Assembly: GCF_018143015.1 (NCBI RefSeq)
Contig: NC_054741.1
Location: forward strand, 14,259,736-14,323,735
DNA length: 64,000 bases
Direction: 5' to 3'
Origin: Lytechinus variegatus
Lineage: Eukaryota > Echinodermata > Echinoidea > Temnopleuroida > Toxopneustidae
Both the position numbers and the translations under genes were made by a program. A model generated the notes under the pieces. That model saw only the letters and a list, made by a program, of their open reading frames with translations. It was not told the DNA's origin and did not search any database. Position 1 is the stretch's first letter; each line of letters opens with the position of its first letter. Positions 10,989 through 54,471 of this stretch are shown here, in pieces.

Positions 10989-11087
10989 TATTCATTTTGA
11001 TTTCAGTTTTCTATTCTTTTCCTTATCATATTTTGGCAAGGTGGAGAAGCTATCGGAAAGTACTGCTCTGGTGATTTTATCAACATT

Positions 11088-15671: not shown

Positions 15672-15850
15672 ACTGGGCGTTGTGGCGTGCGCCTGTAATC
15701 CAAGCTGTGGGGAAGTTACAAAGTGATGCAGAGGTTCGAAGTTCGAGCCCTGGTCACGTCTTTCGGATGGTGACGTTAAAGGTCGGTCCCAGACGTAAAT
15801 AGTCATATCTGATTGATACACGTCTGACAAAACTCAAATACACACACACG
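15672..15850 (+). mobile_element. SINE with 7SL-like front and pol III B-box
   Basis: The first 45 bases include GTGGCGTGCGCCTGTAATCC followed by AAGCT, a close match to the Alu domain of 7SL RNA. A pol III B-box-like GGTTCGAAGTTCGAGCC follows about 60 bases in. The body (TTTCGGATGGTGACGTTAAA then GGTCGGTCCC) resembles the conserved body of many invertebrate SINEs, and the element ends in a CA-rich tail. Subfamily not assigned. Confidence 0.6.
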
Positions 15851-33627: not shown

Positions 33628-34080
33628 CCAATGTATATGTAGGCCTAGAGTAAAGTGCCCAAATATCAGACACCTGTCTTAAGCATGAAAATACAATCAT
33701 TGAATCAAATAAAAATGTTTATTTTCGTAAAGCACAAATGTTGAATATTAATGTCATAGAAAATTCAAATTGAAAAAATTGTGGTAAACAGAAATTATTT
33801 ACTTCAAAAGAACGACACGATGCTAAATTGAAGACGAAAATAAAGAATAGAACATAACATTCTAATAAACAGAACATTTTTCGAGGTGTCGCACATCGTC
33901 AGCCTGAAAATTATAAACAGAATTATTGGTGCATGTACATGTATTTATACAGTTAGGATGTCGAGTAAAATTTCAAGAATGTAGTTACATTAGATTACAA
34001 GGTGTGAATTCAATGGTTAAATGGAATGAAGTAAAAAAAAATTTGCAGTGTCTGGATTTATCAGATAGGGGTGGGTTAAA

Positions 34081-34480
34081 TTAAATGGATAACATTATTT
34101 GGTAATTGTACACCTGTTGGTTTAGTTCAGGTTGTTTCCAATTGATGAAAAGCCCTTTTATTTTTAGTTGAAAATCTGTTATAGCAGTATCGAGAATTTT
34201 GAAACAGTGGGTATTGCATTCTAACAAGCATTGGGGTGATGATTGCAGGTGTTTCCATATAGGAGTTTTTGTCCTTCCCCATGTGCTCCTGTACTCGTGT
34301 CTTATAATGACGCTTGGTTTGACCAATATAGCGAGCTTTACATCTCGCACATGTAAATTGGTATATGACACGAGCACGAAGCTCCTGGGGAATGGAATCT
34401 TTTACAGAAAGTAAAGAACTGAGCTTGAAAGATGAGAAAGAAAGAGTGATATGAAGATCTTGGCAATATTGTTTAACCAT
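34081..34480 (-). pseudogene. Penelope-like retroelement fragment: GIY-YIG endonuclease end
   Basis: The minus-strand product contains YQFTCARCKARYIGQTKRHY then TRVQEHMGKDKNS. This matches the GIY-YIG endonuclease domain with its zinc-binding CxxC that follows the reverse transcriptase in Penelope-like elements. A neighbouring frame continues with the C-terminal part (CFKILDTAITDFQLKIKG, then FINWKQPELNQQVY). Reverse transcriptase motifs are not found upstream, so this is a 5'-truncated copy. The frame is broken. The 3' flank down to about 33.75 kb may be its untranslated tail. Confidence 0.8.
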
Positions 34481-34787
34481 AATGTAATGTTGATTCTCTT
34501 TTCAAGTTCCTATGATGCTTTACCAATATAAGGTAACTTGAAAAATCTTGTCTTTTTTTTTTCTTGATCCTTGTTTGGGTTTTGGATGTTTTGGTTCAAT
34601 GACCTTTAGACTTCGTTCTGAAAACGAGCACGCACGTCAACAGCACGCATTTCCCAATCAATTGGCCATTACGTCCTATGTTTGGGATCGTGCCATATTT
34701 GGAAGGGTGTTGAATTTCCCACCAAAGGGAACCCCATTGCAGATTTTTTTTTGCGATCAATCATGTGCGATCTCGGCGGAGATATTT

Positions 34788-34860
34788 CTGGCGGAAGTCA
34801 CTTCCCCCTTGCAAGAGTTTTTTGGGTCTTCGATCTTTTGGAGTCCATAATTAGCGAGGC
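34788..34860 (+). promoter_or_regulatory. Candidate promoter and first exon of the snoRNA host gene
   Basis: GGCGGAAGTCACTTCCCCC contains two opposed ETS/GABP cores (GGAAGT and ACTTCC). It leads into the pyrimidine run CTTCCCCCTT, which resembles the terminal-oligopyrimidine start of snoRNA host and ribosomal protein genes. About 60 bp on, AGCGAG then GCAAGTATG would be a GC-type donor. The first snoRNA lies 120 bp further. Inferred from motif order only. Confidence 0.35.
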
Positions 34861-34981
34861 AAGTATGGATTTTTACGTTTACCCCTGGAATATTTATTGC
34901 CCATTGCCCATACTAACCTTGAGAGATGAATCGATGAATTGCTATGACAATCAAGACTCATTGTTGGTGGAGGGGATTCAA

Positions 34982-35077
34982 CAATAGCAATGATGATCAT
35001 TCACTTGCCGCTCTCAATGCTTTACAAGCAAGTGTGGACGAGAAGTGTTTTCAATCCTGGTTATGACTGAGCTATTG
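34982..35077 (+). ncRNA. C/D snoRNA, family A copy 1
   Basis: Terminal stem CAATAGC/GCTATTG, C box ATGATGA and D box CTGA. The body has TCACTTGCCGCTCTCAATG. Before the D box, AATCCTGGTT is complementary to AACCAGGATT near the 5' end of 28S rRNA. Intronic, 84 bases before the exon at 35162. Not matched to a named vertebrate snoRNA. Confidence 0.85.
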
Positions 35078-35327
35078 TGACATTCCTACATGTGGTCTCC
35101 TTCAGCTTGTGTTGCGAGATGTCAAAGTACTTAAAGGCATTTTTTAATCATTTTTCTACAGGTCTTTGTGGCACATCTCTTTTCTTCGAAAGAAAGACTT
35201 CCTGATGAAGCGACCAATTAACATGCCACAAATCAATGACAAGTATGCACAATGTAAGTTCATTTTAGCTTTGTTAATTGGAATATTGTACGTTATTTCT
35301 GTTTAGACCGAACCTGAAAACTATTCT

Positions 35328-35423
35328 CAATAGCAATGATGATCACTCACTTGCCGCTCTCAATGCCCTACAGGCATGTGTGGATGAGAAGTGTTTTAAT
35401 CCTGGTTTTTAACTGAGCTATTG
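35328..35423 (+). ncRNA. C/D snoRNA, family A copy 2
   Basis: Same 7-bp terminal stem, C box ATGATGA (35336-35342) and D box CTGA (35413-35416). A possible C'-like GGATGAG lies in the body. The sequence is close to copies 1 and 3 across its length, while the flanks differ, so selection has kept the RNA. Lies 174 bases before the exon at 35598. Confidence 0.85.
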
Positions 35424-35767
35424 TACCCTTTCATTGACTTGTTTTTTTTTATGGAAACAAGTTTTATAATAGACCAAACATGTTTTATAAATGTTTATTG
35501 ATTCTATGATTTTTCAATGGTAAACTATTTTTGTCATATTGGTCATTTATGAGGAGAGAATTTCACTGTTTTATATTCAAATTTCTTATTGCCTTAGCTG
35601 TGCAGCATCATGGACCTACTGATGAAAGAAAACCTGTGGTATTCTGTCATTAAATTTGATGACATCATGAGCCCTCTTGATTTCTGATATCTCATCTTGG
35701 TAAGATGCACATTGTCTCCTTATTCTTGGCTAAAAAAAAGACTATTATGATTCCAAATTAATGGCCT

Positions 35768-36527
35768 TTAACCCTATCTAGGCCGGGGGGGGGCCTCAGC
35801 CCCTCAACGAGTCGCGCGATATTTTTGCCGCGCAAAATTTTTTGACCACGCCGCTCACTGACTTTTTACTTTCAAGTCTTGCGCAACTTTTGAGACCAAT
35901 TTTGCATCACCCGGGTACGTGGTTCCGAAGTTACACAACGTGATGTAAGTGCATGTCAGACCAAAAATTGCTCAAAAACGTGATTTCGTGTACAAAGTCA
36001 ATGTAAATTGTTTTTTCAACCAAAAATCATAAATGTATGATTATTTTCAGTTTTGCTGGCCTAAATGTATGTATTTTATGCTGTTTATGATCTTAGAAGA
36101 GCCCCCAACAAATTTCATTGAAAAAACAATGAAAAACAAAAGGTCCTTAAAACCAAGAAATACATAAGAAATTGCAAAAACAATATAATACATAAGAAAT
36201 TGATCTGATATCACAATTTTTTCATGTACACTTGCTAAGAACATCACAGAGTTTCTATGCCAAGAATTTGAACATTTGGATCTTTATTTATGGAGTTAGA
36301 GGAAAAAGTATGATTTCACATACTAATTACGCATAAATTAGCATAATTATGTATTATCAATTCGCATGAAATAAATTACCATTTTGTAGAATATATTCCA
36401 GACAACCTGTGTGCCAATTTTCGGCGCGATCGCGCAGTCAACGGCCGAGATCTCAAGGGGGGGCCTGGGAGGCCCCCCCCCCTCGGCCATATGAACTCCC
36501 AAAATACCCCGGCCTAGATAGGGTTAA
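35768..36527. mobile_element. TTAA-flanked transposon (CCCTATCTAGGCCGGGG ends), 760 bp
   Basis: TTAA then CCCTATCTAGGCCGGGG at the left is mirrored by CCCCGGCCTAGATAGGG then TTAA at the right. There are long G and C runs just inside and no ORF of note. Lies in an intron of the snoRNA host gene. A TTAA target points to Kolobok or piggyBac type; the latter is not excluded. Confidence 0.85.
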
Positions 36528-36972
36528 GTGACTCGGTGTACATGTATTACTGGATGAGGGGTTGAAAAGTTGAGGTGCCCATTTAATTTTGATATTTTTA
36601 CCATGAATAATTTCAACTTTTTGTTTTCAATAAGACACATTTTAATTCATTTGGTTTTAGCATCCCTGCTCATTATACAGTCTTCACTTTATTTTCTTTT
36701 TTTAAGTGTTGACATGAAGCTGCTTTCTGATTGAGCAGCCTTTCAATGCATTGTTTTGAATAATCTAGGCATGTTATTGTCATATCCAACATTTTCCAGT
36801 TAAATTTTAACCTTAGCGCCCCCCTAAAAAAGAAAAATTTTAAAAATTAAAATAACTATTGCCTTTGCCCTAGGATGAAATCAACACTACAGGGGATCTC
36901 TGTACCAGTTATGCTAGAATTGAAAGCATAAAAGTAATAGTGAGTTGTGTATGGAAATAGACGAGAGAGTGA

Positions 36973-37068
36973 GAGAGCACTTCTATGATGATCCACCTAG
37001 CTCGCTTCGAGTGTTTCAGTGAAGAAAATTCTTCGTTCCCTATTTATGAAGATTCTGAGAATGCTCTC
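36973..37068 (+). ncRNA. SNORD29: U29-like C/D snoRNA, copy 1
   Basis: Terminal stem GAGAGCA/TGCTCTC, C box CTATGATGA, D box CTGA (37055-37058). The guide CCTAGCTCGC pairs with GUGAGCUGGG of 28S rRNA (two G-U), the target of vertebrate U29, which has CTAGCTCAC at the same place after the C box. About 15-20 bases longer than the human RNA. The following exon starts 99 bases on. Confidence 0.85.
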
Positions 37069-37493
37069 TAACATCAAGCTCGAGAAGTCTAGCCGTTACT
37101 AAATGTGTAGAATTGTACTGTTATTTTGGTAAACTTGTGATTATCCCATCTTTTCTCATTTTTACAGGGCAGTCTTTGTAAGACCTGTTGGAAATCCTGC
37201 TAAGAGAAATAGGTAAATACTTCCTTTATTGTGAACATTGTATTGAGGATGTATGCAGGAAATGCCTCTATTCCATAAAACTTAAAATAAAATATTAAAC
37301 ATAAATTCTCCAGGTATTGCAACCTTCCAATTTATATAGAAAGGTATGAATAGATGAATAATACTTTCAAATTGCTATAGCTAAAGTAGTTAACAATAAT
37401 TTTTTTAGATAGAATGTACAAAGGAGTTGATATTTGTATGGAATATATAGCGCATGTTCCTTTTTTAGATGCCACTCTAAAAAACTGGACGCA

Positions 37494-37585
37494 GTAGCAA
37501 TGATGATTACTCACTTGCCGCTCTCAATGCCCTCCAGGCATGTGTGGATGAGAAGTGTTTTAATCCTGGTTTGTAACTGAGCTAC
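37494..37585 (+). ncRNA. C/D snoRNA, family A copy 3
   Basis: Stem GTAGC/GCTAC, C box ATGATGA, D box CTGA, with the same TCACTTGCCGCTCTCAATG and AATCCTGGTT blocks. Separated from copies 1 and 2 by the first U29 copy and the TTAA element. Lies 151 bases before the exon at 37737. Confidence 0.85.
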
Positions 37586-37964
37586 AGTGCCCACATTTCT
37601 ATCAAGTTGTCATTTTATTACCTTTCCAAAGTAATTAATATTGATTTTCAATTATAATTGAAATATTTTGGTCAAATTAATCATCCATCCATGATTACTG
37701 ATATGACAATCTAATATCATTTCTTTTTACTTATAGCCTACCAGCATTGACAAGCTTCTAGTCCTTGGTATTTGCCACTTGGTGCATATTTTGATGCCAT
37801 CAAAGACTCATGGTCATGGTAAGTTTCTTGTCAGTTGAAGTTCAGAATAGGGTTTGTGTTGAACTGAACTGTGAAAAACAGTTCACAGCAACCTCTGTTG
37901 TGTATTTTTCTTTGAAGTTGACTGTCGAGTAAAAGCACAGGCAGTACAGTAATGCATGTTACGA

Positions 37965-38068
37965 GTTGAGACTCATGGTGATGATTTTGATCTTTTTTCC
38001 CCAGCTTATCGATATATGCTGATAACCATGTGAAATTAAGCCAGTACGAATCTGAATGAGGTCTCAAC
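37965..38068 (+). ncRNA. Candidate C/D snoRNA, orphan
   Basis: Twelve-pair terminal stem GTTGAGACTCAT against ATGAGGTCTCAAC with one bulged base. C box GTGATGA (37978-37984), D box CTGA (38052-38055), internal D'-like CTGA at about 38019. Possible guides CTTATCGATATATG and AAGCCAGTACGAAT match no rRNA or snRNA stretch I can recall. Intronic and on the host strand. Next certain exon is 1.5 kb away because repeats follow. Confidence 0.6.
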
Positions 38069-38281
38069 TGCATGCACCTTGTAGCCATCATTGATAAATC
38101 AAGTGAAGAGTTTCCTAATATATTTGAATAGCAAAGTGCCTCATCAGGTAGATCTGTGCTACCATAGGTGATCATACTTTTTTTTCATGAGGCTTTTCGA
38201 TTGTGTGACGATGATGATGCATAACACAATGTGAACTGTTTATTTATCCAGGGTCATGATTCCTGCCAACTTGCAGTAGCA

Positions 38282-39260
38282 GAGATGCCAACCCTGCCGA
38301 TTTCATCGGGAGGCTCCCGAAAATTCATCCCAACTCCCGCCCTTACGATTACCATCCTTATCCTCCCGAAATTACGAATTTTTTTTTGCATTGATCAAAT
38401 TGGATTGGAAGTACATGTATCGTCTGCTAACTTAAGTATTAAGTCCATTACGTTCGCTGCTACCAAATTCTGTGTGAAAGGCAGACAAAGAAGGAGCAGC
38501 GAAAAGCTGGGGTGCATGTGATATGCCCAACGGGAATCCACTGTGCACCAGGCCGGTAGGCCCGGTTAGCTTCGTGAGCCGTGTGCGCTCGCGGCTGCTG
38601 GATTTGTCGAGTCGTGCGGTTGAATATCGGTGTGTTTCGGCGTGTTGATGGGTTGATATTGACACGAAATGGCGGAAAATCAACAAAAGAAGACCAAGAA
38701 ATGGTCTCAGAAGTATAAGACTGAATACAGTCTCTAGTAACCGTGAATTCGGAAGTCGTAAAGAGGAATTTACCATGCATTTTGCACAATTTGCAGCGTG
38801 GACATTTCAGTTGAGTACGGAGGTCATGATGATTATTCGGAAGCACTTTCGGAGCAAACGGCATACGGGCATTGCGAAGACAAGATCTTTACAGGTAGAC
38901 GTTACCCGCGCTGAGCTTTTCTTTACTGAATTTATATGATAACCTGCCTATGGCTGATAATTCCTCATTATTGTTGAACGGGTACTTATCTTCTATTGTT
39001 CCCTCATTTTTTTTTACATGTGAAAATGCATATTTGAGATTTTTTGTTAAAAAAGTGGGAACAATGTTTTTTTTTAAAACATTTGAAATGCTCCAAAATA
39101 AGGGTCATATTGCACCAGAGAGCATCTAGAAACCCAGAGCTTCCAGGGCCCTAAGGAGGGCCCTGGACCCCGGCCGCAAGGGTCGAGCGCTCTGCGCTCG
39201 AGATGTGACCTACGCGCACATAATTTGGTGTCGGTTACAAATCCTCCCTAATTATGATTT
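38282..39260. repeat. Repeat-derived intron segment
   Basis: Contains a CCCTGCCGATTTCATCGGGA block, a degraded zinc-finger exon (separate entry) and a GGGCCCTAAGGAGGGCCCTG block. These explain why this intron is long. Confidence 0.4.
38669..38890 (+). pseudogene. Degraded BED/hAT-type zinc-finger exon
   Basis: The ATG at 38669 opens MAENQQKKTKKWSQKYKTEY, a basic lead like those before BED-type fingers, but it stops after 22 codons. Downstream, CTICSVDISVEYGGHDD and, one frame over, IRKHFRSKRHTGIAK complete a C-x2-C ... H-x5-H finger. A stop and at least one frameshift therefore break it. A donor-like ACAG then GTAGAC follows. It is probably the N-terminal exon of a hAT-type transposase or a gene derived from one, stranded in the host intron. 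Confidence 0.5.
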
Positions 39261-39863
39261 CCAAAAGTTGGCATCTTGCAGTAGGTGTATCCATGGATGT
39301 TTCGGATAATTTTATTTAAAAGCTAATCATTTTGTGCCTCCCCTCCCACCCTTTTACAATTTTTACTGCATCCCGCACACCAGACTGCTCAAGCTATGAT
39401 TACTTGAAAGAATGACAACTTTTTGTGTGATTGAAAAGACCAATCATGTTAGGCAGGTTCCACCGAAAGGTGGTCAGACGTACATATTTAATTGAATTGC
39501 TTACATCTGCATTTATTTCTTTGCATTTCCTTTGCAGAAGTTGGTGCAGGGTCTACCTGAAAAGTCATATGACATCAGAGTCAACTGACCTTCATCCGAG
39601 GTCACTGGACCTATGCGAAACTGGAGGGAAAGGTGAAACGAAAAGGGGTTGAATAAAGGTAAGAATTAAAGAGGGAAAAATATCTAAATGTCTGAAGTTT
39701 TCAATTGCATGATAGGTTTTTAACTTGGTGCTTTTTCTGTTTGACTCGTGTCACACTTTTTTGTAGCAGTTGCATTGCTACCTGATTGACAACATATAAC
39801 CAATTTTTGCAGTTGTATGAATGCACAGGTATACATTGAAAATCTTTACATTCTATATTGTTA

Positions 39864-40092
39864 TTGGGCCTGTTTCAAAAAGAGTGTGGTAATTCTTGCA
39901 ACTACCATGGTAACGGGGGCCCAGCAGCCAATGAAAACCAAGGTTTTCATGGTAGCTACCAAAATCAATGGCAAAGTTACAATAATTTCAGGGGCCCGTT
40001 GCAGAAAGAGTTTCGATCAAACGCAACTCAACTCAAAAAGTCTTGCGCAACTTTTTCTGCAACAGGCCCCAGATATTTGTGAAATGAGCCCC
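39864..40092. repeat. Paired GGGCCTGTTTC / GGGGCCCGTTGC palindromic repeats
   Basis: GGGCCTGTTTCAAAAAGAGT starts one unit, and a second unit runs GGGGCCCGTTGCAGAAAGAG to CTTTTTCTGCAACAGGCCCC, a near-perfect inverted pair. Such ends are dispersed in the window (47291, 51281, 55612). Confidence 0.6.
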
Positions 40093-41438
40093 AGATAAGA
40101 GTTGCTTTCAGTTGAGCTCGGAATAGAAAAGCTGTCAAATATATTTTTTATTCTTGTGCCTTGATCATAGATTTGAATATCTTCCCCTATGTGCCTGCTT
40201 TGCTTTGTATTGAGATTTTGTTTAAAGGGGGATCTAATGACTCCTCAATTTCCCATTAATTATTAACTGATAGCCTCCTTTTCTTGGCATCTCTTGAACT
40301 TCCACCATGTTTATGAGATGAATGCAACCAGGAGGAAGATTAACATGATGAACCTTCGGTGTCAAGGGTGTCTTTATCCCTTGATCCCATCCTCTAGCAT
40401 CATCACATTCTTGCTCTGTACATCCGTAATCTTTTTATGTTATTTCGGGAAAAGGGCAGCCATGAAAGTTGAATAGCTGATGCACACCAGTGATATGTGG
40501 TTATTTGTGTATCAAGAATTTCACATGGCAAACTAGAATATTGTCACTTCCTGATACATGGTGAAGAAAAATTGCATTGAAATTAACAATATCAGCCCTT
40601 TATTGGACTAGCACACAGTAGTGTACTGATGTTTTGTAACACATACTACTTGGCCATTTCCGATACATGAATTATTGAAGTTTGCTTTTATAATGTAACT
40701 TGATATGTTCAAAGATCCCACATCCTATCTTCAGGTTGGACAAGATGACCCAACATTCAGTTTTGACTAATTGGACTTTATTTGTTTAGGAATACTGGCA
40801 ATTGTTTGGCCAATTCATGCTAATAAAAAAAAATGAAATGCAAAGAGACTTTGTGCTCAATTTGATTGTGATTAGATTCTAACAAATTCACACATTTCTT
40901 TATCTTTCAGATAGGGATGATGAGACTCTGCCAAAGGTCAAAGAGATGTTTTACCTTGCTATCTCTCAAATCCAATCAAAGGTATGTATTGAACTGTAAG
41001 CTACGAGTATACATTTACTACAACTTCTATTAATGCATTTTCTTCCTTTACTAAGGTGTTGTTTTTATTTTTTCACTAGATATTTTATCATCGTCTTGTT
41101 AATTTCATGCTGCCAAATAAGTTAGTTTTAGGCCAAATAAAATGAAACTTGTAAAAGATGCCCAAAAGGAAGTAAAGGATATGAATATGATATCATATTG
41201 GTTGATGCACATTTCTTTTTACCTTGTATTTCATAATTTTAGTATTTAAAATAGAAATGGCGCAGAATTCTGAAAGAAACGCATTTTCAAAAAAGGGAGA
41301 ATGACTTGAATACTCAAGAATATTGCTTGATTAACATTGTCGAAAACTTGCACTGGATCACACTAACCAATGTATGATTTATACATTATGATATCCTGTG
41401 CTGAAAATCGCACACCATACACATTGTGTATGGAAATA

Positions 41439-41530
41439 GAGCATTTCTATGATGATCCACCTAGCTCGCTTCGAGTGTTTCGGTGAAGAAAATTCTTCGT
41501 TCCCTATTTATGAAGATTCTGAGAATGCTC
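41439..41530 (+). ncRNA. SNORD29: U29-like C/D snoRNA, copy 2
   Basis: Same C box, CCTAGCTCGC guide and D box as copy 1, with a GAGCATT/AATGCTC stem. The upstream flank TGTGTATGGAAATAGA is shared with copy 1, so the intron segment and not just the RNA was duplicated. Lies 100 bases before the exon at 41631. Confidence 0.85.
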
Positions 41531-42552
41531 TCCAACGTCAGATAAAGCTGAATATGACTACTTGCTGTGATGAGAATTGTAATTCTAGTTCTAAATTTCT
41601 CGTGTAATTATCCCACACTTGCTCTTACAGGACACTCTGGGACAAATTGGAAATCACTGGCAATGTCAACCAAGAGGTAAAATATTCTAGTATGTTTTGA
41701 TAACTGATGCTGTGAGAAAGTCCATCTAACCCAGGGAAAAAATTGTACGGGAGAGCTATTGTGCTTTCTGTTAATTTTTTGATGGTCTCTCTGGAACCCA
41801 TTGGTCATTTTAGGGATTGATTTACAATAGGAGTGGATGCATAATGCTCTCAATTGTGGGGTTGGATGTACAAAGAAATTAGGTGATCATATCCTGGAAG
41901 TGTCTATGACACCATTTACACATAAAAGGTAAAGGCGGCATGATGCCGGGCCTAGAACATATGTGTAACTACACATGTGGACTGACGCTGCCTTGAAGCC
42001 GGTCCACCTTTAGAGGTGGTTTGAGGGGACGTAAAGCCGCCTTCTGGTATGTGTAAATACAAAGCAGACCGAGTTCAGCTTTTGGGAGTCATGTGATCAC
42101 TGTAATTAATAGTTGGGATATGTCATGGATCTAGCTCTATTGCATTGACATCGGTATCGCGCACTTCCAAGTTTTATGATCTGAACACCAAAACCAACTT
42201 CTTGTACAAGTAATCAAACTAATTTTTTTGTGATTGATGTTGCTTCATTGGAGTATTTGCATCCAAAATGGGGGACCAAACTGGTGAAAAGCACTGAAGT
42301 AGTATAGTAGTAAGAAAATCGCGTAATAAAGATAAACAAATTTTAGATCGTAAACAAAGTAAAAGACCACAGGAAAAGAAATAATCATTGTTTACATGAA
42401 TAGTGTCCCAATGTCAAACTCATGAAAGTGCCGTGGGCTGCTGTAACGTCTTGGTAAATGGGGGGTTGTCAAGCTGACCTTTCTGCTATGTGTAAACACA
42501 CGGCGTGAGGCCGACTTGATGAAACGGGGTCTATGTTGAATTTTATAGGAGG

Positions 42553-42670
42553 CAGTGGCGGACCGTGACCCCGAGAAGACAAAGCATTGGGGGGCACGGC
42601 ATTGTTCACAAACAATGCAGTGCCCCCCCCCCCCAATGCTTTGTCTCCTCCGGGTCACGGTCCGCTACTG
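42553..42670. mobile_element. Palindromic hAT-like MITE, 118 bp
   Basis: CAGTGGCGGACCGTGACCC at the left is mirrored by GGGTCACGGTCCGCTACTG at the right. The flanks carry a perfect 8-bp duplication ATAGGAGG (42545-42552, 42671-42678). The internal halves are also inverted (CAAAGCATTGGGGGG with CCCCCCAATGCTTTG). Confidence 0.9.
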
Positions 42671-42801
42671 ATAGGAGGGATGAATTGAATGGCTCGGTAG
42701 TCTTTTTTTGTGTTAGTGTATTAAGCATATATTGTTTATAAGCATTGTGATGTTATGTTGAAAGTAATATCCGTTATCTGAAAAGTTTGATAACAGTTTG
42801 T

Positions 42802-42900
42802 GTGAAGCATTTCTATGATGATCCACCTAGCTCGCTTCGAGTGTTTCGGTGAAGAAAATTCTTCGTTCCCTATTTATGAAGATTCTGAGAATGCTCTCAC
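42802..42900 (+). ncRNA. SNORD29: U29-like C/D snoRNA, copy 3
   Basis: Body identical to copy 2 over the C-to-D region, with a short imperfect terminal stem (GCATT/AATGC plus GTG/CAC). The next exon is 310 bases away, further than for the other copies. Confidence 0.8.
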
Positions 42901-43309
42901 ATGAATTGATATATTGAACGAGATTATATCTGTTTTCAATGATATGATACTAAATATGATATTACAGTTAAGTTTCATAAACACACCTTCGTATTTGAGT
43001 TCTTTTCTTGAAAAAAAAGAAAATATGTAAGAAAATAACTTTTAAAGATTTGTTGATGCAAAAGACCATCCACAACTAGTGAGTTGCTTGCTACCCCACT
43101 GCACTTATTTACAAATGGAAAAAGTCTTGTCACTCAGTGAAAAATAATGACTTTAATATTATTTGGAGCCATTTTCTGAACTTGTTTCCCCTTCATTGAA
43201 TGCCTTCAGATTCCAGTGGCTGAGATCTGTCAATGAAGCTCTTAAGAAGAAAGGAACCTTGTTGACTGACATGAAAGGTAACTTTTCATCTAACCACAAA
43301 GTAGTTAAT

Positions 43310-43620
43310 GTCATAAATTAAAAAGTATATGGACGTAGTTCATGAAACTTGGACATAAGGGTAATCAAGTATTTTTAACATCCTGTTTGAGTTTCAGTTC
43401 ACATGACCAACGTCAAAGGTCATGTAAAGTGAATGAACTTTGGCTATATTTGAGGGTTTTTGTTGAATTGCCATCATAACTTTGAAAGTTTATGGATATA
43501 GTTCATGGAATGTGGACATAGGGGTAATCAAGTATCACTGATCTTCTTGCACAAATCTTAGGTCACATGGTCAAGGTCAAATGAAATTTAGGGTCAATGA
43601 ACATAGTATTTTTTTTCAAA
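43310..43620 (-). repeat. Single unit of the GGTCATGTGACC-type repeat
   Basis: TAATCAAGTAT, AACGTCAAAGGTCATGTAA and GAATTGCCATCATAACTTTG are in reverse order relative to the tandem array at 59.47-60.5 kb. It is a dispersed copy within a host-gene intron. Confidence 0.55.
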
Positions 43621-43823
43621 TGAAATGTCCCTTTTATGAATAATTTTTCTATAGCTGATTTCAAAGTTAGCACTGCTGCTATATTGAAACGCGTAATGCA
43701 GGCTAGACTGCCAGAGGTGCTCCACTTGTTAATACTTTTTTTTTTTAACATAACACATAGTGCAATTTTTCGAATTTGATACGTAGTGGAGATGAACGAT
43801 ATTTTGAGCCTAAATTATTTCTG

Positions 43824-43904
43824 GACCATATCGTGATGATTGAATTGCTTTACAGACCTGTTCTGAATATATCAGTGTTGATAATCAAGCAACTGAATGT
43901 GGTC
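43824..43904 (+). ncRNA. SNORD25: U25-like C/D snoRNA
   Basis: C box GTGATGA (43833-43839), then TTACAGACCTGTTCTGA. Human U25 has CACAGACCTGTACTGA at the same position, a guide against ACAGGUCUGUGA of 18S rRNA with CTGA as D'. The final D box is CTGA at 43893, and a GACCA/TGGTC stem closes it. Lies 204 bases before the exon at 44109. Confidence 0.9.
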
Positions 43905-44382
43905 TTGAATTTGCAGGGATTTATTTAATAAAGATCAATGATTAATCATGTGTTTTACACATTCTCCACTCAGATGATGTTGAATAACACTTTTAGTATG
44001 GCCTACATACTAAAAGTGAGAGAAACATGAATAGATATGAAATGAAATACGAGTCTGGACAAGTAATAGTAGTTGATCTATTTATACATTGTCATTCTCT
44101 TGATACAGAAGACTGTGTATACTCCCTTGTTCATACAGAAGTTTGAGCTGGAAGATCTTCTGAACAAGCGTAAGTTGACAAAATAATTCAATATATTTTG
44201 TCTTGAGGAATCGAGTGTTAATCCATGATATTTAATGAAAAAGGAATAACTTTTCTCTCTTTGTGTACACATGTTAGGTGCACAACTCATACCTTTTTTC
44301 CTGTTTAATTATCATTCAAGGTATGCTGCTCTCATAGATGAATGAATGCTATGATTAAAAGCAATAACACTTTATATAACTT

Positions 44383-44458
44383 GAGCAATCAATGATGCTA
44401 ATTTACAAGCATATGTCTGAATGTTGGTGATAGACATCCAAGGATACTGAGGTTGTTC
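44383..44458 (+). ncRNA. SNORD27: U27-like C/D snoRNA, copy 1
   Basis: C box ATGATGC, guide ACAAGCATATG followed by D' box GTCTGA, and D box CTGA (44447-44450). Human U27 has ACAAGCATATGGCTGA; the guide pairs with CAUAUGCUUGU at the 5' end of 18S rRNA. GAGCAATC pairs with GGTTGTTC to close the stem. Exactly 79 bases before the exon at 44538. Confidence 0.92.
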
Positions 44459-45019
44459 GAAGCTTGGAAAATTGAGCCAGGCACAAGTGTATTTTATTCG
44501 CCAAATTGAACTCAATTTTTTTATCATTACTTTGTAGCTCTCTGGTTCCTTTGCTTGCTTCACCCATGCACGACGGTCTATGACAGAGGTATGTATATTC
44601 TTTGGTAGATTGTAATTTATTTATGAATCCTTATATTCCCCCCCCCCCCAAAAAAAGGGGAACCCTCAAGGCAGACTTCAGAGATGCAGGATTATTGTTC
44701 ACTGATTGTTAGGTGTAGATACATGAATACCTAAAGTCACATTGAAATAAGTGCTAATTGGTCTGGTTAATAACCAAGAAGAAAAGGTCAAAGTGACACT
44801 GATTCCTAAATGCTAATGCCGGGGTAATAATAGCCAACTGAAGTGCCTACCCTGGGTAAATATGCCGCTATTATTATTATTAAAAGCTTCGTAGGTATTC
44901 ATATGAGTGCTCCTTTTTTTAAATCAGAAAATTTTTTCCCTCAAAACGAGTGAAGATGATGTCTACAAGGTCCTGTATAGTGTATCAAACTCTAGCTTTG
45001 CAAAGCAGATTTTTTTTTT

Positions 45020-45091
45020 GCAATCAATGATGCTACATAACAAGCATATGTCTGATTTCTTGTGACAGACACTATAGGATACTGAGATTGC
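45020..45091 (+). ncRNA. SNORD27: U27-like C/D snoRNA, copy 2
   Basis: Same ACAAGCATATG plus TCTGA guide and D' unit, with stem GCAATC/GATTGC. It differs from copy 1 between D' and D while the guide is unchanged. Lies 79 bases before the exon at 45171, the same spacing as copy 1, so intron and exon were probably duplicated together. Confidence 0.92.
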
Positions 45092-45887
45092 TCATAAGCC
45101 GTTAAATGTTTCTTTGTTTCAATAAGTTATTAATGTGTAATAAGTTTTATTTCTCCCTTCAATGTTGTAGTTCATGATTGTTCTGTGTTTGGAAGATGAT
45201 GAGCAAGAGGTCCTTGGCGAAATTAACTGATGAAGTGTTTAGGTATGTATTCAACTCTGACCTGATGGGTAACGCATTAGTTCTTTATAAGCTTGTTTTT
45301 TGCCAAATTAAAGTGAAATGCCAGTAGTTGCAGTAAGCACTGATTTCATGAGAAAGTCTGTAAAACCAGGCTTCATTGTCAGTATATCATCGAGGATCTA
45401 GATATGGTACAGTTACATAAACTGAACTTTGTGAAATCTTGAAATCTACGCTGAAAAATGTTCACACTGAAGATCACCAACACAGATAGGCACACGTGGG
45501 ACAGTGCATTATTGCTGGAATAAAGACGCGACAGAAGTGACCGAATCCGCGCTTGTTTTGCTGATTTCTCAGCAATTACACAATTTCTTCCAGATTCCTT
45601 TGGCACATATTTTTTTATTCATACAGACATTTGGGTGGTCATTATATTAGATTCTGTAAAAAGTCATTTTGAGATAGTTACCAAAACTGGAATTTATCTT
45701 TAAACAGAAATAAGAATTATCCCACTTTTTTTTTCATTTCATTTTCTCCCTCTTCGCCCCTCTTTAATTTTTTTTTACCCTAACAAGCCAGGTTATTTTG
45801 ACCCATTTCACATCCGGGGGGTTGAAAAATTCCCACGACGGAGTTATCACAAAAAATTAACAATTGTTACTTATTTGCCACATGGAT

Positions 45888-45962
45888 GAGCTGTGATGAG
45901 ATTAATTGTCTCGTTCGTATGATGTTTTCATATGATTAGTACCCATTATGTAATCTGAGCTC
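45888..45962 (+). ncRNA. SNORD30: U30-like C/D snoRNA
   Basis: Stem GAGCT/AGCTC, C box GTGATGA, D box CTGA (45955-45958). The guide TCTCGTTCGT pairs with AUGAACGAGA of 28S rRNA (one G-U), the site of vertebrate U30, which reads ATCTCGTTCGG. Lies 232 bases before the exon at 46195. Confidence 0.8.
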
Positions 45963-46436
45963 GAAACAGTAACAGAGATATTTGGATCCTTGTGCCTGAG
46001 GTGGTGTCACAAACTTTGTCTAAGAAAATGCACAAGATTTGGAGTCATTTGGACAAAATTGGATGAGACATTGATTCAGGACAGATTTGAAGTTGTAAAA
46101 AAATTAATGCTTTAGTAATTGCATGTATATGATTTTCGCCAGAGATTTGATGCATCGCTTTGTTGACAAAATCTCAATTGTTTTTTTCTCTCAGGTATGC
46201 TGTATTAGCTATGTAGCACTATGCTGCCTTTACCAACTCGTCAAGTTGCTATTCATTTTCACAACTTATATAGCTATCGGTGAAAACTAACTTCTGAAGA
46301 GAGGCTGGTCATATTCGTGTGGTGCATTTTTTGGATGAAGGAAATGTCAGATGAGTTCTGGAGGTTTGTATATTACCCTTGGAAGTTTTCAGTATTGACC
46401 AGATTATACAACTCCCAAGAATGTTCTGTAATCTGA

Positions 46437-46570
46437 TTGGTCCAAATCGGACCACATGATATTCAGCGAATTGCACTATTGAATCCAAAATGCACTATCC
46501 TGCATTCTGACGTCAGAGTGCAGGATAGGTCTGGAATTATCTAGAATAATCTAGAATAAAGATTGAATAG
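46437..46570. repeat. Short palindromic repeat (CCTGCATTCTGACGTCAGA)
   Basis: CTATCCTGCATTCTGACGTC and its inverse GACGTCAGAGTGCAGGATAG form a perfect or near-perfect hairpin. Probably a MITE remnant within an intron. Confidence 0.55.
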
Positions 46571-47191
46571 AGCATTCGGGGCAATTCGGTAACATGGGTG
46601 ATGAGGGGGGTTGTATAAAAAAAACAATGCACGCATTCTTGTGCATATCAAGGACCTAAATAATGAACTCTGTGCTCGACTCGCCAAATGGATATACTGC
46701 ACTTGGTCCCATTGGCTCTTCTCACACATCGTGCATTATTTGTATACTATTGATTATTGAACAAAATATCCTCTAGGGTGCCCAGGTGACCTCACAAAAA
46801 AATCGCACTTTCATGACTATTTTGATGATGCATTGTGAAAAAATTTCACCAAATTTGACTTGAATCGGTTCATAGTGACCAAAGATGTGGCCAGATGAAT
46901 TGCAAATGCACCCCATTGAAATCAGTGTAAAAATGCTTGATTCTTGGTGTTGTTCAAACCAGTGGAGTAGTTGTGGGATTAGCTTTAGTAGGTAGTCGTG
47001 TGGCCACATCTGATATTGTGTCATGTGAAGGCTCCCTAAGACATGTGAATGAATATATAGACATTGCTGACCAATCACCCAGGAAATACATATCATTTGA
47101 ACAAAGTTTGGCTGTTTTAACAATCGCACTAGATATTCCAGCCTAGACCAGTCTTTGGGAAAAAACAGCTTCATCAAACATCTGTGAGATA

Positions 47192-47266
47192 TATTTCTGT
47201 GATGAAATACATACCGCCCCAGGCCGACTACATCATGGTGGATTGGTTTATTATTTCTGAGAAATA
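47192..47266 (+). ncRNA. SNORD31: U31-like C/D snoRNA, copy 1
   Basis: C box TGTGATGA, guide ATACCGCCCCAGGCCGA, D box CTGA (47257-47260), stem TATTTC/GAAATA. Human U31 carries ATACCGCCCCAGTCTGA, which pairs with CUGGGGCGGU of 28S rRNA. Next certain exon is 581 bases on. Confidence 0.92.
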
Positions 47267-47599
47267 AGTCAAATCTGAATTTCAATCAAGGAGCCTGTTT
47301 CATAAATACACCTCTAGAGTAACTTGCCATAGTCATTGGTCTTGATAAATCAGGAACCTGCTGCTGTTTCTTGTCCATCTCATCTAAAAGCCTTGTGAAA
47401 TTACACTGGCTGGTGGTATTCATGTGTCCATTCTAATATATCTAGGTATTAAAAATACCATTTGTATTGCTTTCATACTTTGGGGAGGGGTGTTTGCAAA
47501 TACATTATTACCCCATTCGTTGGAACCTGGCTTATCTGCATACAGCATATGCAGTTTTTTGGCTTCCTTGGGAGCAGCAAGGTCTTTGTTGAACATCAG

Positions 47600-47700
47600 G
47601 GGCCATTTCACAACTTTGCCCTTGAAGCAACTACCATGGCAACATGACTCGGCAGCCAGTAACAATCGAGGCTCCCATAGTTGTCATTTTGGCAGTTAAT
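47600..47700. repeat. GGGGCCATTTCACAAC-type dispersed repeat
   Basis: Resembles the unit at 39.9 kb (CAACTACCATGGTAAC, CAGCCA). The minus-strand open frame across it is not a gene. Confidence 0.4.
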
Positions 47701-48071
47701 ATATGTAGTTGTAACTCGTGTGAAATTGGCTCATAAAGTTCTTTATTTTGTGTAGTCACATTTTACAGTGTGTTTTGAAGCTTATAAAAGAAACATGGCC
47801 ATCTGATTTGAAACTATAAATGTTTTTCTGTTTTGTTGTATTTTCAGGCTCTCTTTCATCAGTGGATAGACAATTACATGCACAATGATTGCATGGCTGT
47901 TTACTCTTATCTACATTTGCCATTCTAAGGACTGAAAGTAATTATCCTATTCTTCAAAGCACAGGTATGTGAGTAAATGTTAAAAGAAAAGTGCAGAGTA
48001 TTGGGGGGGGGGTAAGTAAATGGTTCATGTTTATACCATTGAAAAAAATATAATTATCCTCAATGTGAAAA

Positions 48072-48667
48072 TTAAAGGACAAGTCCACCCCAACAAAAAC
48101 TTGATTTGAATAAAAAGAGAAAAATTCAACAAGCATAACACTGAAAATTTCATCAAAATCGGATGTAAAATAAGAAAGTTATGGCATTTTAAAGTTTCGC
48201 TTATTTCCAACAAAATAGTTATATGAACGAGCCAGTTACATCCAAATGAGAGAGTTGATGACATCACTCACTATTTTGTATTTTATTATATGAAATATTT
48301 TGATTTTCTCGTCATTGTCATTTGAAATGAAGTTTCATTCCTCCCTGAACACGTGGAATTTCATTATTTTAACATTTTGTGCTTCAGGCAAGGAGGTCCT
48401 AATCGTCAAATTCGTAAAAATTTAAATATTGTATAATTCAAACAATAAAAAACAAAAGAAATAGTGAATGAGTGAGTGACATCATCGACTCATTTGGATG
48501 TAATTGGCTCGTTCATACAACTATTTTGTTGAAAATAAGCCAAACTTTGAAATGTCATAACTTTCTTATTTTACATCCGATTTTGATGAAATTTTCAGCA
48601 TTGTGCTTATCTTATTTTTCTCTATTGATTCAAATCAACATTTTTCTGAGGTGGACTTGACCTTTAA
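48072..48667. mobile_element. Kolobok-like MITE, AAAGGACAAGTCCACC family, complete
   Basis: TTAA then AGGACAAGTCCACCCC at the left, GAGGTGGACTTGACCT then TTAA at the right. Halves are inverted (GAAAATTTCATCAAAATCGG with CCGATTTTGATGAAATTTTC). It lies within the host-gene intron between the two U31 copies. Confidence 0.9.
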
Positions 48668-48726
48668 TCATATGTGCAAGATGGTGGGTGCTCACATTTC
48701 AATGATCTAGATTATCCAAGTTATTA

Positions 48727-48799
48727 ATTTCTGTGATGAAATACATACCGCCCCAGGCCGACTACATCGTGGTGGATTGGTTTTTTATTTCTGAGAAAT
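48727..48799 (+). ncRNA. SNORD31: U31-like C/D snoRNA, copy 2
   Basis: Differs from copy 1 by only a few bases from C box to D box and has the same ATACCGCCCCAGGCCGA guide; stem ATTTC/GAAAT. An acceptor (CCTTTCCATTCCCAG) about 145 bases on may start the last host exon, which I could not close. Confidence 0.92.
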
Positions 48800-49059
48800 C
48801 TGGTTAAATTTTCAGGGATGGACAGTAGGGGTGTGTAAGTTTGTTTACACAATTTGGAATTTAAAAGGATTGATTGTGGCTCATATGCAACTGTATGGGA
48901 AAGTAGGGAGGGATGAATATGGGCAGTTGTCCTTTCCATTCCCAGCTTGGTACTCGATGGCGGCTTTGAAACTATATTTGATGCAAGGAAAAAATACATG
49001 GAGCCCTGAGGAAAAAAGGGCCCTTGAAAATCCCCATTCACTGCAGTGTTAAAGATAAA

Positions 49060-49445
49060 AGACAGTAGTTGCAACAAACAACCATTTAATTAGAAAGTCT
49101 TTTCAATCGAGGGTTATTGTCAAAATATTCTCATACATCTAGATCTTGGACATTGAAATGAAAATATCTATGTGAAATCGTGAAATTTTAACTGAAAACC
49201 CATAATTCTTATGATCACTGACACAAAAAGGCATATGTGGGAGAGTATATTAATATTCCTTTGAAAAATATATGCAAAATTTGATGGAATTTGATGCTTA
49301 TTTTGCTCATTTCTCAGCAATTACACATTCTTACAGAGCTATTTGGCACATATTTTTTATTTTTATGTACAAACACTTTGGTGATAATTTCATTGGATTC
49401 TCTTGGAACTCCTTTTGAGATCGTTGGTATTGGAGGTTGTGAAAA
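49060..49445 (+). repeat. Second copy of a duplicated intron segment
   Basis: Follows 45325-45720 in order: CAGTAGTTGCA, AGAAAGTCT, TCATTTCTCAGCAATTACAC and TTTGGCACATATTTTTTAT all recur. This looks like an ancient segmental duplication inside the host locus. It is diverged and lacks a snoRNA. Confidence 0.7.
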
Positions 49446-50202
49446 GTAGCCCCCCCCAATTTTTTTTTTTTTTTCAATTTTCTTTTTCTCATTTATATTT
49501 GTCTTGTTACTGCCCTAACAGAAACCATGATGCAATCTTGATGTAGGACTGTGAATACCCCGCCCAAGACTCGGATATGAAATCTGGCCTAGATTCCCCC
49601 ATCGGACATGATTTCCCAAGCCAGAGATGTCCCACATACACTTTTTCTTTTGAAATAGTAGGACATTTTACAATGAGTAGGGTGTATGAAGTACAGGGTG
49701 GACATAATCAAAGCCGCACAAACTGGAGATATCCCAGTCCGATCTGATCTTTTAGAACAGATCTTATGATGGAGATATAATCATCTTGGCCTCATTTTAT
49801 GAAGTTTGTCATGTATAGGGAACAGTGCTCATCCACTCAAAATCAGTCATTTGGCTGTAGGTTACATGAAAAAAAAACTTGTCTGTGATTAGAATGGTTA
49901 GGAACAGAGATAGTTCATGATGTCTGTATGAATTCAAGTGATGAAGAACAGAATAAAAAGAGGCAAAAATTATATTCTTTCAGATTGTGTGCGTTTGTTA
50001 GTGTGTCATTATATGCAGTTTTTTTCTATTTCCATTGAAGTAAAGGTCTCGATATATTGTGTGTATGCAGTAATTTTTTATTGGTGTTCAGATTTTTAGG
50101 TGGAAAGTGTAGGTGATCCACTTCGCTGTTTAAGGTGACAATTTTATTTGTGAGATTCCATGAAAACCAAACAAATATTCTGTATGTGGGACAGTATAGT
50201 GT
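49446..50202. other. Spacer, nothing recognised
   Basis: No gene or element ends seen. It could contain the 3' end of the host transcript, with an AATAAA at about 49951. Confidence 0.3.
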
Positions 50203-50771
50203 TTAAAGGAATTGTCCAGGCTGGAGATATATCAAATAGAGTAGAATTAACAGAGCATAATGCTGAAAATTTGATCAAAATGTATAACAAATAATGAAGT
50301 TACTAATTTTAAAGATTTTCATTATTCCAGTGAAACAGTTCTAGGTATGTGTTGATAAATATTCATTAGGTGGGCTGATGTCATATCCCCACTTGTTCTT
50401 TTGTATTTTATATGAAATTAGGTTCATTCAAAAAAAATTTCTACCAAGAACTAAAACGATTGGATTGACAACTGATAATGAGCATTAGTTATTTATTGCT
50501 GCATCATAATGGAGACACATCATTTTTAATACACATGTATGAAAAAATGAAACCATTGTGATTTCATATAACATAAAAAGGAAAGTGGGGATATGACATC
50601 AGCCCACCTATGAATAGTCATGATGTGCATATAATTGTTTTTACAAAATATTGATGAACTTTGTAATTCGGTAACTTTATTTGTTATCTGATTTTGATGA
50701 AATTTTCAGCATTTTCTCTAAATTTTACTCTATTGAGATATAAATATTTTCAGCCCGGACCATCCCTTTAA
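50203..50771. mobile_element. TTAA-flanked MITE, related subfamily (AAAGGAATTGTCCAGGC)
   Basis: TTAAAGGAATTGTCCAGGC at the left, GCCCGGACCATCCCTTTAA at the right. Inverted halves share GATGTCATATCCCCACTT and its inverse. A sister family to the AGGACAAGTCCACC elements. Confidence 0.85.
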
Positions 50772-51280
50772 GTACCTTGAAATCACACACCCCTCCCCTT
50801 ACTCCTCTTGGTGAAAATATTTAGGGTCTAACACGTCCAAAATTATGGGAAGCTGAAAATGTCAAAATGAACAGAGGTACTTGCATGTCTAAGTGTGCAC
50901 ATCAAGAAGTCCCTACTGTCGGAACTGAAACTTAATCATCACCCTCAAAGGAAGTTTCTGAAAATGTTGGTTTTAATCAAAGAAAAAAGAGTATAAGAGA
51001 AAAATATTGGTTAACATTCGATGAAAGTCCAAAGCATAAGAGTTAAGAAGTTCTAAACTATTTAATTTGTGATGTCATAAGCAAGCAGCTCCCCTACATA
51101 CTAGTATAATGTAATGTGAATTTCATAGATTCAATTTTTTTTCTAATGGAGCACAATGAATATTTTTGTCATACAAGTCTGATAATATACACACCTTACA
51201 AGTGTCATTTCACTTTTTTTGGGGGGGGTTATCAATATCTCACAAGATGTGGAGGAGCTGCACATCTGTGATGTCACAAT

Positions 51281-54200: not shown

Positions 54201-54471
54201 TTAATATTTATAAACATGCAGTTTCAAAACAAAGATATTAAGTGTTACCTAGGACCATTTAATTTCAGAGAAAGAATTCCGTCCGACATGCTTTCAAATT
54301 TGCATCACGTTATAAAATTTGCGAAAAATTCAAGAAAAGTTGTAAAAATTGAATGGATACTTATACTTCATGAAAGAGGAGATATGAATCATCAATAAAA
54401 AATGAGAAAACATCGTTTAAAAAAATTTTCAAAAATAAGCATGATGGTTACCAATTTTGAAACAGGCCCCA
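51281..54471 (-). mobile_element. 3.2-kb DNA transposon with CATGTCGGACGGAAT subterminal repeats
   Basis: Terminal inverted repeats GGGCCTGTTTCAAAATTG and CAATTTTGAAACAGGCCC; CAAT occurs on both sides and may be the target. The word CATGTCGGACGGAAT or a one-to-two-base variant occurs about ten times: at 51306, 51471, 51663, 51682, and inverted at 51840 and 51861, then at 53901 (inverted), 53923, 54093 and 54276 (inverted). All lie within about 600 bp of an end, as expected of transposase-binding sites. A second word, GTATTACCGAACG, recurs at 53218-53660. A minus-strand coding remnant lies between. Superfamily not assigned. Confidence 0.8.
52138..52744 (-). pseudogene. Coding remnant of the 3.2-kb transposon
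   Basis: Two overlapping minus-strand frames. The first ends with MSERSKNAIRCKNWRDSLD then a Lys/Arg-rich run. The second continues as KLKQNKEKYESALLKDKCRK followed by a Ser/Thr/Pro-rich tail. Lead sequences of this kind, RxxNWRxxL...KYExxLxKDxxRKR, are common at the N-terminus of large transposon-encoded proteins in aquatic animals. No catalytic core is present. The change of frame suggests a single frameshift, or the first frame may be spliced. Confidence 0.45.

Follow-up and report, generated by a model that had tools for sequence, protein, structure and literature searches.

We observed, on the plus strand of a 64,000-nucleotide stretch of the genome of the sea urchin Lytechinus variegatus (hereinafter, the window), an array of 14 small nucleolar RNA (snoRNA) candidates within positions 34801-49000, 13 of the C/D type and one of the H/ACA type, which apparently reside in the introns of a single non-coding transcript. 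As read from the DNA itself, the array resembles that of the vertebrate snoRNA host gene UHG (SNHG1), with which it has in common the U25, U27, U29, U30 and U31 families, that is, five of the eight UHG families. The existence of a multi-snoRNA, non-coding host gene with these five families is well supported, and it is quite probable, in our judgment, that the locus is a host gene of the UHG/SNHG1 type.

The snoRNA array and its predicted rRNA targets

The snoRNAs are arranged, 5' to 3', in the order D1a, D1b, U29a, D1c, SNORD12, SNORA57, U29b, U29c, U25, U27a, U27b, U30, U31a, U31b, with D1 and the U29-like RNA present in three copies each, and U27 and U31 in two (Table 1). The preliminary description of this DNA had placed homologues of U25, U27, U29, U30 and U31 within 34800-49000, each with C and D boxes and an element antisense to rRNA; this inventory holds, on the plus strand and in the copy numbers given here, but is incomplete, having missed the three D1 copies, SNORD12 and SNORA57.

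When the gathering scores of Rfam are applied, SNORA57 is the single match in the whole window, and there is none for SNORD25, SNORD27, SNORD29, SNORD30 or SNORD31. The scores of SNORD31, SNORD27 and SNORD12 (Table 1) lie below the respective gathering scores of 40, 52 and 43, and those of SNORD29 (25.8, 25.8 and 25.3 bits) below 48. In the E-value mode, run over positions 34000-50000 with the lower-scoring matches of one clan dropped (one was), both SNORD31 matches, both SNORD27 matches and SNORD12 are clear, even though under their gathering scores, whereas SNORD29, snoU30 and snR56 match weakly. Altogether, 6 of the 14 snoRNAs match at E<=0.01 and 11 at E<=1; the remaining 48,001 bases, used as a control, gave three snoRNA-type matches at E<=1 and none at E<=0.1. 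The E-values of U29, U30 and U25 are non-significant by themselves; U30 was matched via a plant-type snoU30 model, and U25 via the yeast snR56 model, which belongs to the Rfam clan of SNORD25. At U27a, SNORD27 is outscored by SNORD121A (38.0 bits, E 3.8e-4). One D1 copy matched SNORD103 at E 2.9, and the other two had no match. A match to archaeal sR3 at 45192-45262 (E 0.21) overlaps predicted exon 12 and was excluded from the count.

A filter for C/D RNAs (C box with at most one mismatch, CTGA D box, 4 bp or more in the terminal stem) lists 12 of the 13 C/D candidates; U29a is absent, probably owing to the mismatch that breaks up its stem. Over the whole window and both strands, this search yields 57 candidates, 29 of them, many overlapping, on the plus strand of 34800-49000. 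Guide scores of at least 9 are reached by 20 candidates within this region and by 16 in the other 113.8 kb of strand, scores of at least 10 by 12 and 2, scores of at least 11 by 3 and 1, and scores of at least 12 by none. The 12 candidates that score at least 10 correspond to six distinct places, namely, SNORD12, U25, U27a, U27b, U30 and a doubtful one at 38826-38914; the guide scores of U31, U29 and D1 are below 10. Of the six places, the doubtful one is at odds with the others in its setting. The last of these, which can form 10 pairs with 18S rRNA near position 1576, was rejected as it sits within an apparent transposon insertion (38283-39276, predicted intron 5), which has CTTGCAGTAG flanking both sides and the ends GATGCCAAC and GTTGGCATC. 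Four of the five direct-repeat families detected are the multi-copy snoRNAs; the other one, at 43311-43535 in predicted intron 9, consists of two copies of a 62-nt unit, 84% alike, that start 163 bases apart. The three U29 copies are near-identical over the length of the snoRNA, with the similarity falling away at its ends, which is the pattern one would expect if the duplicates were retained for the sake of the RNA.

To assign targets, we took the rRNA base paired with the guide base five positions upstream of box D or D' as the one modified; site numbers in 18S rRNA were read directly off a human 18S sequence, and eukaryotic large-subunit rRNA (LSU) and small-subunit rRNA patterns sought in viral contigs gave no matches. 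We take the LSU sites of U31 and U29 to be human 28S G4166 and A4493, and that of SNORD12 to be 28S G3878; U30, we assume, also serves 18S A1383. The human sites on record are G1490 for U25, A27 for U27, G4166 for U31, A4493 for U29 and 28S A3804 for U30, and the A1383 row of the same site table names snR53, not U30 (PMC3511168). The predicted sites of U25, U27, U31 and U29 coincide with the published ones, and U30 fits 18S A1383 instead of 28S A3804, at the sequence of which it forms 8 pairs, one of them G-U. The names U25-, U29- and U30-like thus reflect the guide and its site, which in the case of U30 is not the published one, and these three RNAs are best regarded as putative members of their families. 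The earlier claim of guides identical or nearly identical to the vertebrate ones stands, by site, for U25, U27 and U31; it applies more loosely to U29, with two G-U pairs among its 11, and U30 has the 8 pairs just mentioned at its published site.

For a single-site null, the 20 nt before the box were shuffled 50,000 times, using one copy per family and both for U27. The observed pairing was reached by no shuffle for U25, U27a, U27b and U30 (at A1383), by one for U31a, by three for U29b and by five for SNORD12. When a match anywhere in rRNA was counted, it was equalled by 0 of 200 shuffles for U25, 6 and 5 for the U27 copies, 3 for U30 and 7 for SNORD12.

Table 1. Predicted snoRNAs and exons of the host gene, by position in the window
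Feature	Positions	Strand	Description
D1a	34982..35077	+	C/D snoRNA without Rfam family; antisense elements to 28S 5' end
D1b	35328..35423	+	D1 copy
U29a (SNORD29-like)	36977..37067	+	SNORD29 E 0.31; interrupted terminal stem; guide letters identical to U29b and U29c
D1c	37492..37587	+	D1 copy
SNORD12/SNORD106 homologue	37968..38065	+	39.0 bits, E 3.8e-5; 12-pair guide (1 G-U) at G of LSU GGGGAAAGAAGA
SNORA57 (U99), H/ACA	40274..40410	+	49.3 bits, gathering 40, E 1.9e-8
U29b (SNORD29-like)	41441..41531	+	SNORD29 E 0.22; 11-pair guide (2 G-U) to LSU GUGAGCUGGGU; D' box TCGA
U29c (SNORD29-like)	42807..42897	+	SNORD29 E 0.22; guide and D' box as in U29b
U25 (SNORD25-like)	43824..43908	+	13-pair guide (1 G-U) at 18S G1490; snR56 model E 0.65
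U27a (SNORD27-like)	44385..44459	+	12-pair guide (1 G-U) at 18S A27; SNORD27 35.3 bits, E 5.8e-3
U27b (SNORD27-like)	45020..45094	+	12-pair guide (1 G-U) at 18S A27; SNORD27 39.5 bits, E 5.4e-4
U30-like	45886..45963	+	11-pair guide at 18S A1383; snoU30 26.8 bits, E 0.34
U31a (SNORD31-like)	47192..47266	+	SNORD31 38.2 bits, E 1.3e-5; 9-pair guide at G of LSU CUGGGGCGG
U31b (SNORD31-like)	48726..48800	+	SNORD31 39.7 bits, E 5e-6; guide as in U31a
Exon 1 (predicted)	34801..34858	+	begins with 5'TOP-like CTTCCCCCTT; donor AG/GCAAGT, GC-AG type by eye
Exon 2 (predicted)	35162..35253	+	splice signals
Exon 3 (predicted)	35598..35699	+	by eye, uncertain; script's best pair 35782-35914
Exon 4 (predicted)	37168..37212	+	script's best pair ends 37343
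Exon 5 (predicted)	37737..37818	+	splice signals
Exon 6 (predicted)	39538..39658	+	splice signals
Exon 7 (predicted)	40911..40981	+	splice signals
Exon 8 (predicted)	41631..41676	+	splice signals
Exon 9 (predicted)	43210..43277	+	splice signals
Exon 10 (predicted)	44109..44169	+	by eye; script's best pair 44139-44320
Exon 11 (predicted)	44538..44588	+	splice signals
Exon 12 (predicted)	45171..45242	+	acceptor by eye; script's best pair 45627-45791
Exon 13 (predicted)	46195..46363	+	splice signals
Exon 14 (predicted)	47848..47964	+	script's best pair ends 48011
Last exon (predicted)	48946..49400	+	acceptor signal; end arbitrary

The predicted host transcript

The gaps between the snoRNAs are enriched in splice signals. 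The best acceptor and donor pairs in the 13 inter-snoRNA gaps sum to 229.6, compared to 155.4 (standard deviation 17.5) in random gaps of the same lengths elsewhere, none of 300 random sets being as high, and the antisense strand gives 165.4; this test measures signal strength and is not an independent gene model. On the predicted splice signals, each intron of the spliced transcript would contain one snoRNA. The run CTTCCCCCTT at 34801, which resembles a 5'-terminal oligopyrimidine (5'TOP) motif, is a candidate transcription start, and AATAAA or ATTAAA occurs once within 48801-51000, at 49952. When the predicted exons are joined, with an arbitrary end to the last one, the longest open reading frame (ORF) encodes 66 amino acids, and 120 of 500 shuffles contain one at least as long, which supports the view that this RNA is non-coding. 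The single non-coding transcription unit of the preliminary description is supported by the splice signals and the missing coding potential.

From this organization we infer the likely course of expression. RNA polymerase II would produce one long transcript from the 5'TOP-like start near 34801, splicing would remove about 14 introns with one snoRNA in each, and the debranched introns would be trimmed back to the snoRNAs, shielded by core proteins, whereas the spliced exons would be by-products that are probably degraded. The mature C/D RNAs would guide 2'-O-methylation of 18S rRNA (U25 at G1490, U27 at A27, U30 at A1383) and of 28S rRNA (U31 at G4166, U29 at A4493, SNORD12 at G3878, these 28S numbers being those of the presumed human equivalents), and SNORA57 would guide pseudouridylation.

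Relationship to vertebrate UHG

UHG is described as a non-coding gene with a 5'TOP motif and a transcript subject to nonsense-mediated decay (PMC7277114). In human and pig, the order of its snoRNAs is given as SNORD25, 26, 27, 28, 22, 29, 30, 31 (PMC4124155), and an alternative listing puts 29 before 22 (PMC4378963). The urchin gene is like UHG in the five common families and, as predicted here, in the non-coding exons and the single snoRNA per intron, with a candidate TOP-like start as a further putative resemblance. It differs in the addition of SNORD12, D1 and an H/ACA snoRNA, SNORA57, and in size, at about 14 kb with repeats compared to UHG loci of 3-4 kb in alligator and turtle (PMC4378963). 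The presence of five of the eight UHG families among the seven C/D families of this locus has, under a crude model of random drawing, a probability between 5e-5 (80 families) and 6e-6 (120 families). With U29 set aside, U25, U27, U30 and U31 follow the vertebrate order. The common cargo would be best explained if both genes descended from a single ancestral host, and if snoRNAs were subsequently duplicated within the urchin gene to give three copies of U29 and D1 and two of U27 and U31.

Several points weigh against reading the locus as a host gene of the UHG type. U29 is triplicated and lies upstream of U25, and colinearity had to be rejected as proof of orthology: four of five families are colinear, and 17 of the 120 possible orders do as well or better, so that this result is within chance. 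U22, the namesake of UHG, has no Rfam match, either in the whole window (gathering scores) or in 34000-50000 (E-value mode); in the latter run, with the single lower-scoring clan match dropped, the SNORD25 and SNORD30 models had none either, and a search of 34000-50000 for the target sites of U26 and U28 produced no convincing snoRNA. An antisense element at 35671 can form 10 pairs with the U26/U81 target region but was set aside, having no clear terminal stem by eye. Matches anywhere in rRNA were equalled by 25 and 32 of 200 shuffles for U31, 78 for U29b and 19 and 13 for the D1a elements, so that U31 and U29 are carried by agreement with the expected site and not by pairing strength. As to the references, the 18S sequence was human (its length came out at 1869), and the LSU sequences came from distant eukaryotes, as contigs contaminating genome records of bacteria. 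The exons were sought within the snoRNA gaps, and the finding of a single snoRNA in each intron therefore follows in part from the design of the search; 3 of the 13 internal exons (3, 10 and 12) differ from the script's best pair, with two more (4 and 14) differing at one end. UHG-like hosts with other cargo exist in Neurospora (PMC2780460), so the architecture alone is uninformative on descent. Finally, the evidence comes from the DNA sequence of one genome.

We take the human UHG gene to be flanked by WDR74 and SLC3A2; no WD40 or SLC3A2-type domain was found by comparison with Pfam among 30 of the 139 listed ORFs, 27 of these outside the gene. In the open full-text literature, no UHG counterpart from an echinoderm or another invertebrate deuterostome appeared among the listed titles and abstract starts, which is a weak negative.

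Conceivably, the locus is a genuine multi-snoRNA host but not an orthologue of UHG, the five common snoRNAs having been assembled independently as snoRNAs moved between hosts. The order, being within chance, is compatible with this scenario, as are the Neurospora hosts, the mobility of snoRNAs that is the theme of PMC3511168, and the presence of SNORD12, SNORA57 and D1, which lie outside the vertebrate UHG set as listed in PMC4124155 and PMC4378963. Nevertheless, the sharing of five of eight families is improbable under random drawing and the U25-U27-U30-U31 order is kept once U29 is disregarded, so we regard independent assembly as distinctly unlikely. The UHG counterpart proposed in the preliminary description is the best reading of the locus, even if the order of the snoRNAs does not settle the choice between orthology and independent moves.

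Many snoRNAs are hosted in introns of protein-coding genes, and an unrecognised gene of this kind could, in principle, be the host. This is highly improbable given that the longest ORF of the predicted RNA is not above shuffles and that, of the three ORFs tested within the gene or overlapping it, at 38460-38888 (minus strand), 46773-47285 (minus) and 34622-34984 (plus), none matches a Pfam family at E<=0.01. Least plausible of all is a cluster of retrocopies or pseudogenes lacking a working host, which would fit the two to three copies of four families and the interrupted stem of U29a but not the C and D boxes retained in the D1 and U29 copies, the single strand or the exon-like signals in the gaps.

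Other snoRNA host genes

Drosophila Uhg1, likewise a non-coding snoRNA host, would by FlyBase names also carry U27, U29 and U31, which would put the linkage before the protostome-deuterostome split. ZFAS1, the human host of SNORD12 copies, is not known to have any family but that one in common with the urchin gene. Uhg1 contains 16 snoRNAs, which are the only ones to target five of the positions in rRNA (PMC4430873). Vertebrate gas5 similarly combines short non-coding exons with intronic snoRNAs and, in chicken, a TOP start (PMC2653536) but differs in its snoRNA set, and no gas5 family was assigned among the snoRNAs found here. Evolution of the exons in snoRNA hosts is nearly neutral (PMC11405852), which makes the intronic cargo the best means of tracing these genes.

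D1 and paired antisense elements

The three D1 copies have common boxes and terminal stems of 8, 7 and 5 pairs. One element of D1, UUCACUUGCCG (UCACUUGCCG in two copies), is antisense to CGGCGAGUGAA at the LSU 5' end, and the other, AAUCCUGGUUA (AAUCCUGGUU in two copies), to the neighbouring UAACCAGGAUU. Both targets are present in the human 28S sequence; among the contaminant LSUs, L001 and L003 have the second only (with one G-U pair) and L004 the first only. In D1b and D1c, the element next to box D begins too far from it for the five-base rule. Between the halves, by eye, there is a small hairpin with one pair that is U-A in D1a and C-G in the other two copies, where the next inner pair is lost. 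Two elements within the 130 nt selected were obtained in 2 of 2000 shuffles, but we do not consider the pairing proven: because this stretch, about 1 of 50 such rRNA stretches, was chosen after looking, the corrected chance is about 5%.

The U29 RNAs have a second element, CGUUCCCUAUU, that can pair with the human sequence AAUAGGGAACG beside the guide site, and 7 of 2000 shuffles give two elements in the chosen 59 nt. No such second pairing was found with L001, the sole contaminant LSU tested for it, and L003 has the letters of L001 there. Pairing of D1 and U29 with two sites would suit a role in folding. As a tentative and rather doubtful proposal, the urchin gene might keep an early, larger host that combined a UHG core with SNORD12 and SNORA57 and was later split among vertebrate hosts, D1 being a hitherto undescribed C/D snoRNA that clamps adjacent parts of the 28S 5' end with its two elements, as a folding chaperone more than as a methylation guide. 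A search of the open full-text literature for human SNORA57 together with the UHG band (11q12.3) returned no papers.

Surrounding sequence

The window has a G+C content of 36.2% and an observed to expected CpG ratio of 0.67, and ARAGORN predicted no tRNAs. Sea urchins have an expanded Toll-like receptor repertoire, and the 896-residue open frame at 11001-13691 (plus strand), with strong LRR matches (E 1e-69) and a sub-threshold TIR match (E 0.0013, 19 bits against the Pfam cut-off of 21.3), looks like a single-exon receptor of this type; the base composition and this frame are in keeping with a sea urchin but would not by themselves prove one. Among the 30 ORFs compared with Pfam, it is the sole strong match; three others have sub-threshold matches to GIY-YIG, NUDE_C and FWWh. 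The weak GIY-YIG match (E 0.0017, under the Pfam cut-off), at 34127-34501 on the minus strand, is directly upstream of the host gene and perhaps represents a retroelement remnant. At 15672-15764 (plus strand), there is a sub-threshold match to metazoan SRP RNA (35.2 bits against 70, E 9.3e-6), perhaps a fragment.

Within the gene, predicted intron 14 contains an inverted repeat with 180-nt arms, 88% complementary (48071-48250 and 48489-48668), and a hairpin with 42-nt arms, 93% complementary, lies at 42553-42670. The matches to MIR1858, MIR1094, mir-2005 and similar families at 42550-42672, on both strands and far under gathering scores, were rejected as reflecting this one long hairpin. Downstream, within 51306-54290, CATGTCGGACGGAA occurs four times (51306, 51471, 51663 and 51682), as does its reverse complement (51841, 51860, 53902 and 54277).

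Implications

The preliminary description dated the host gene before the deuterostome split, a date that one genome does not establish; the Drosophila Uhg1 cargo, by its FlyBase names, would make the linkage older. The presence in a sea urchin of five of the eight small RNAs of vertebrate UHG suggests that this arrangement may predate vertebrates, as would be expected if the parallel with the fly gene holds. A non-vertebrate counterpart of UHG would allow the host gene to be dated by its cargo and would show how such cargo has been gained, multiplied and moved. The mixed cargo and D1 are the parts worth following, D1 as a putative new snoRNA, amenable to testing, that is predicted to pair with the beginning of 28S rRNA.

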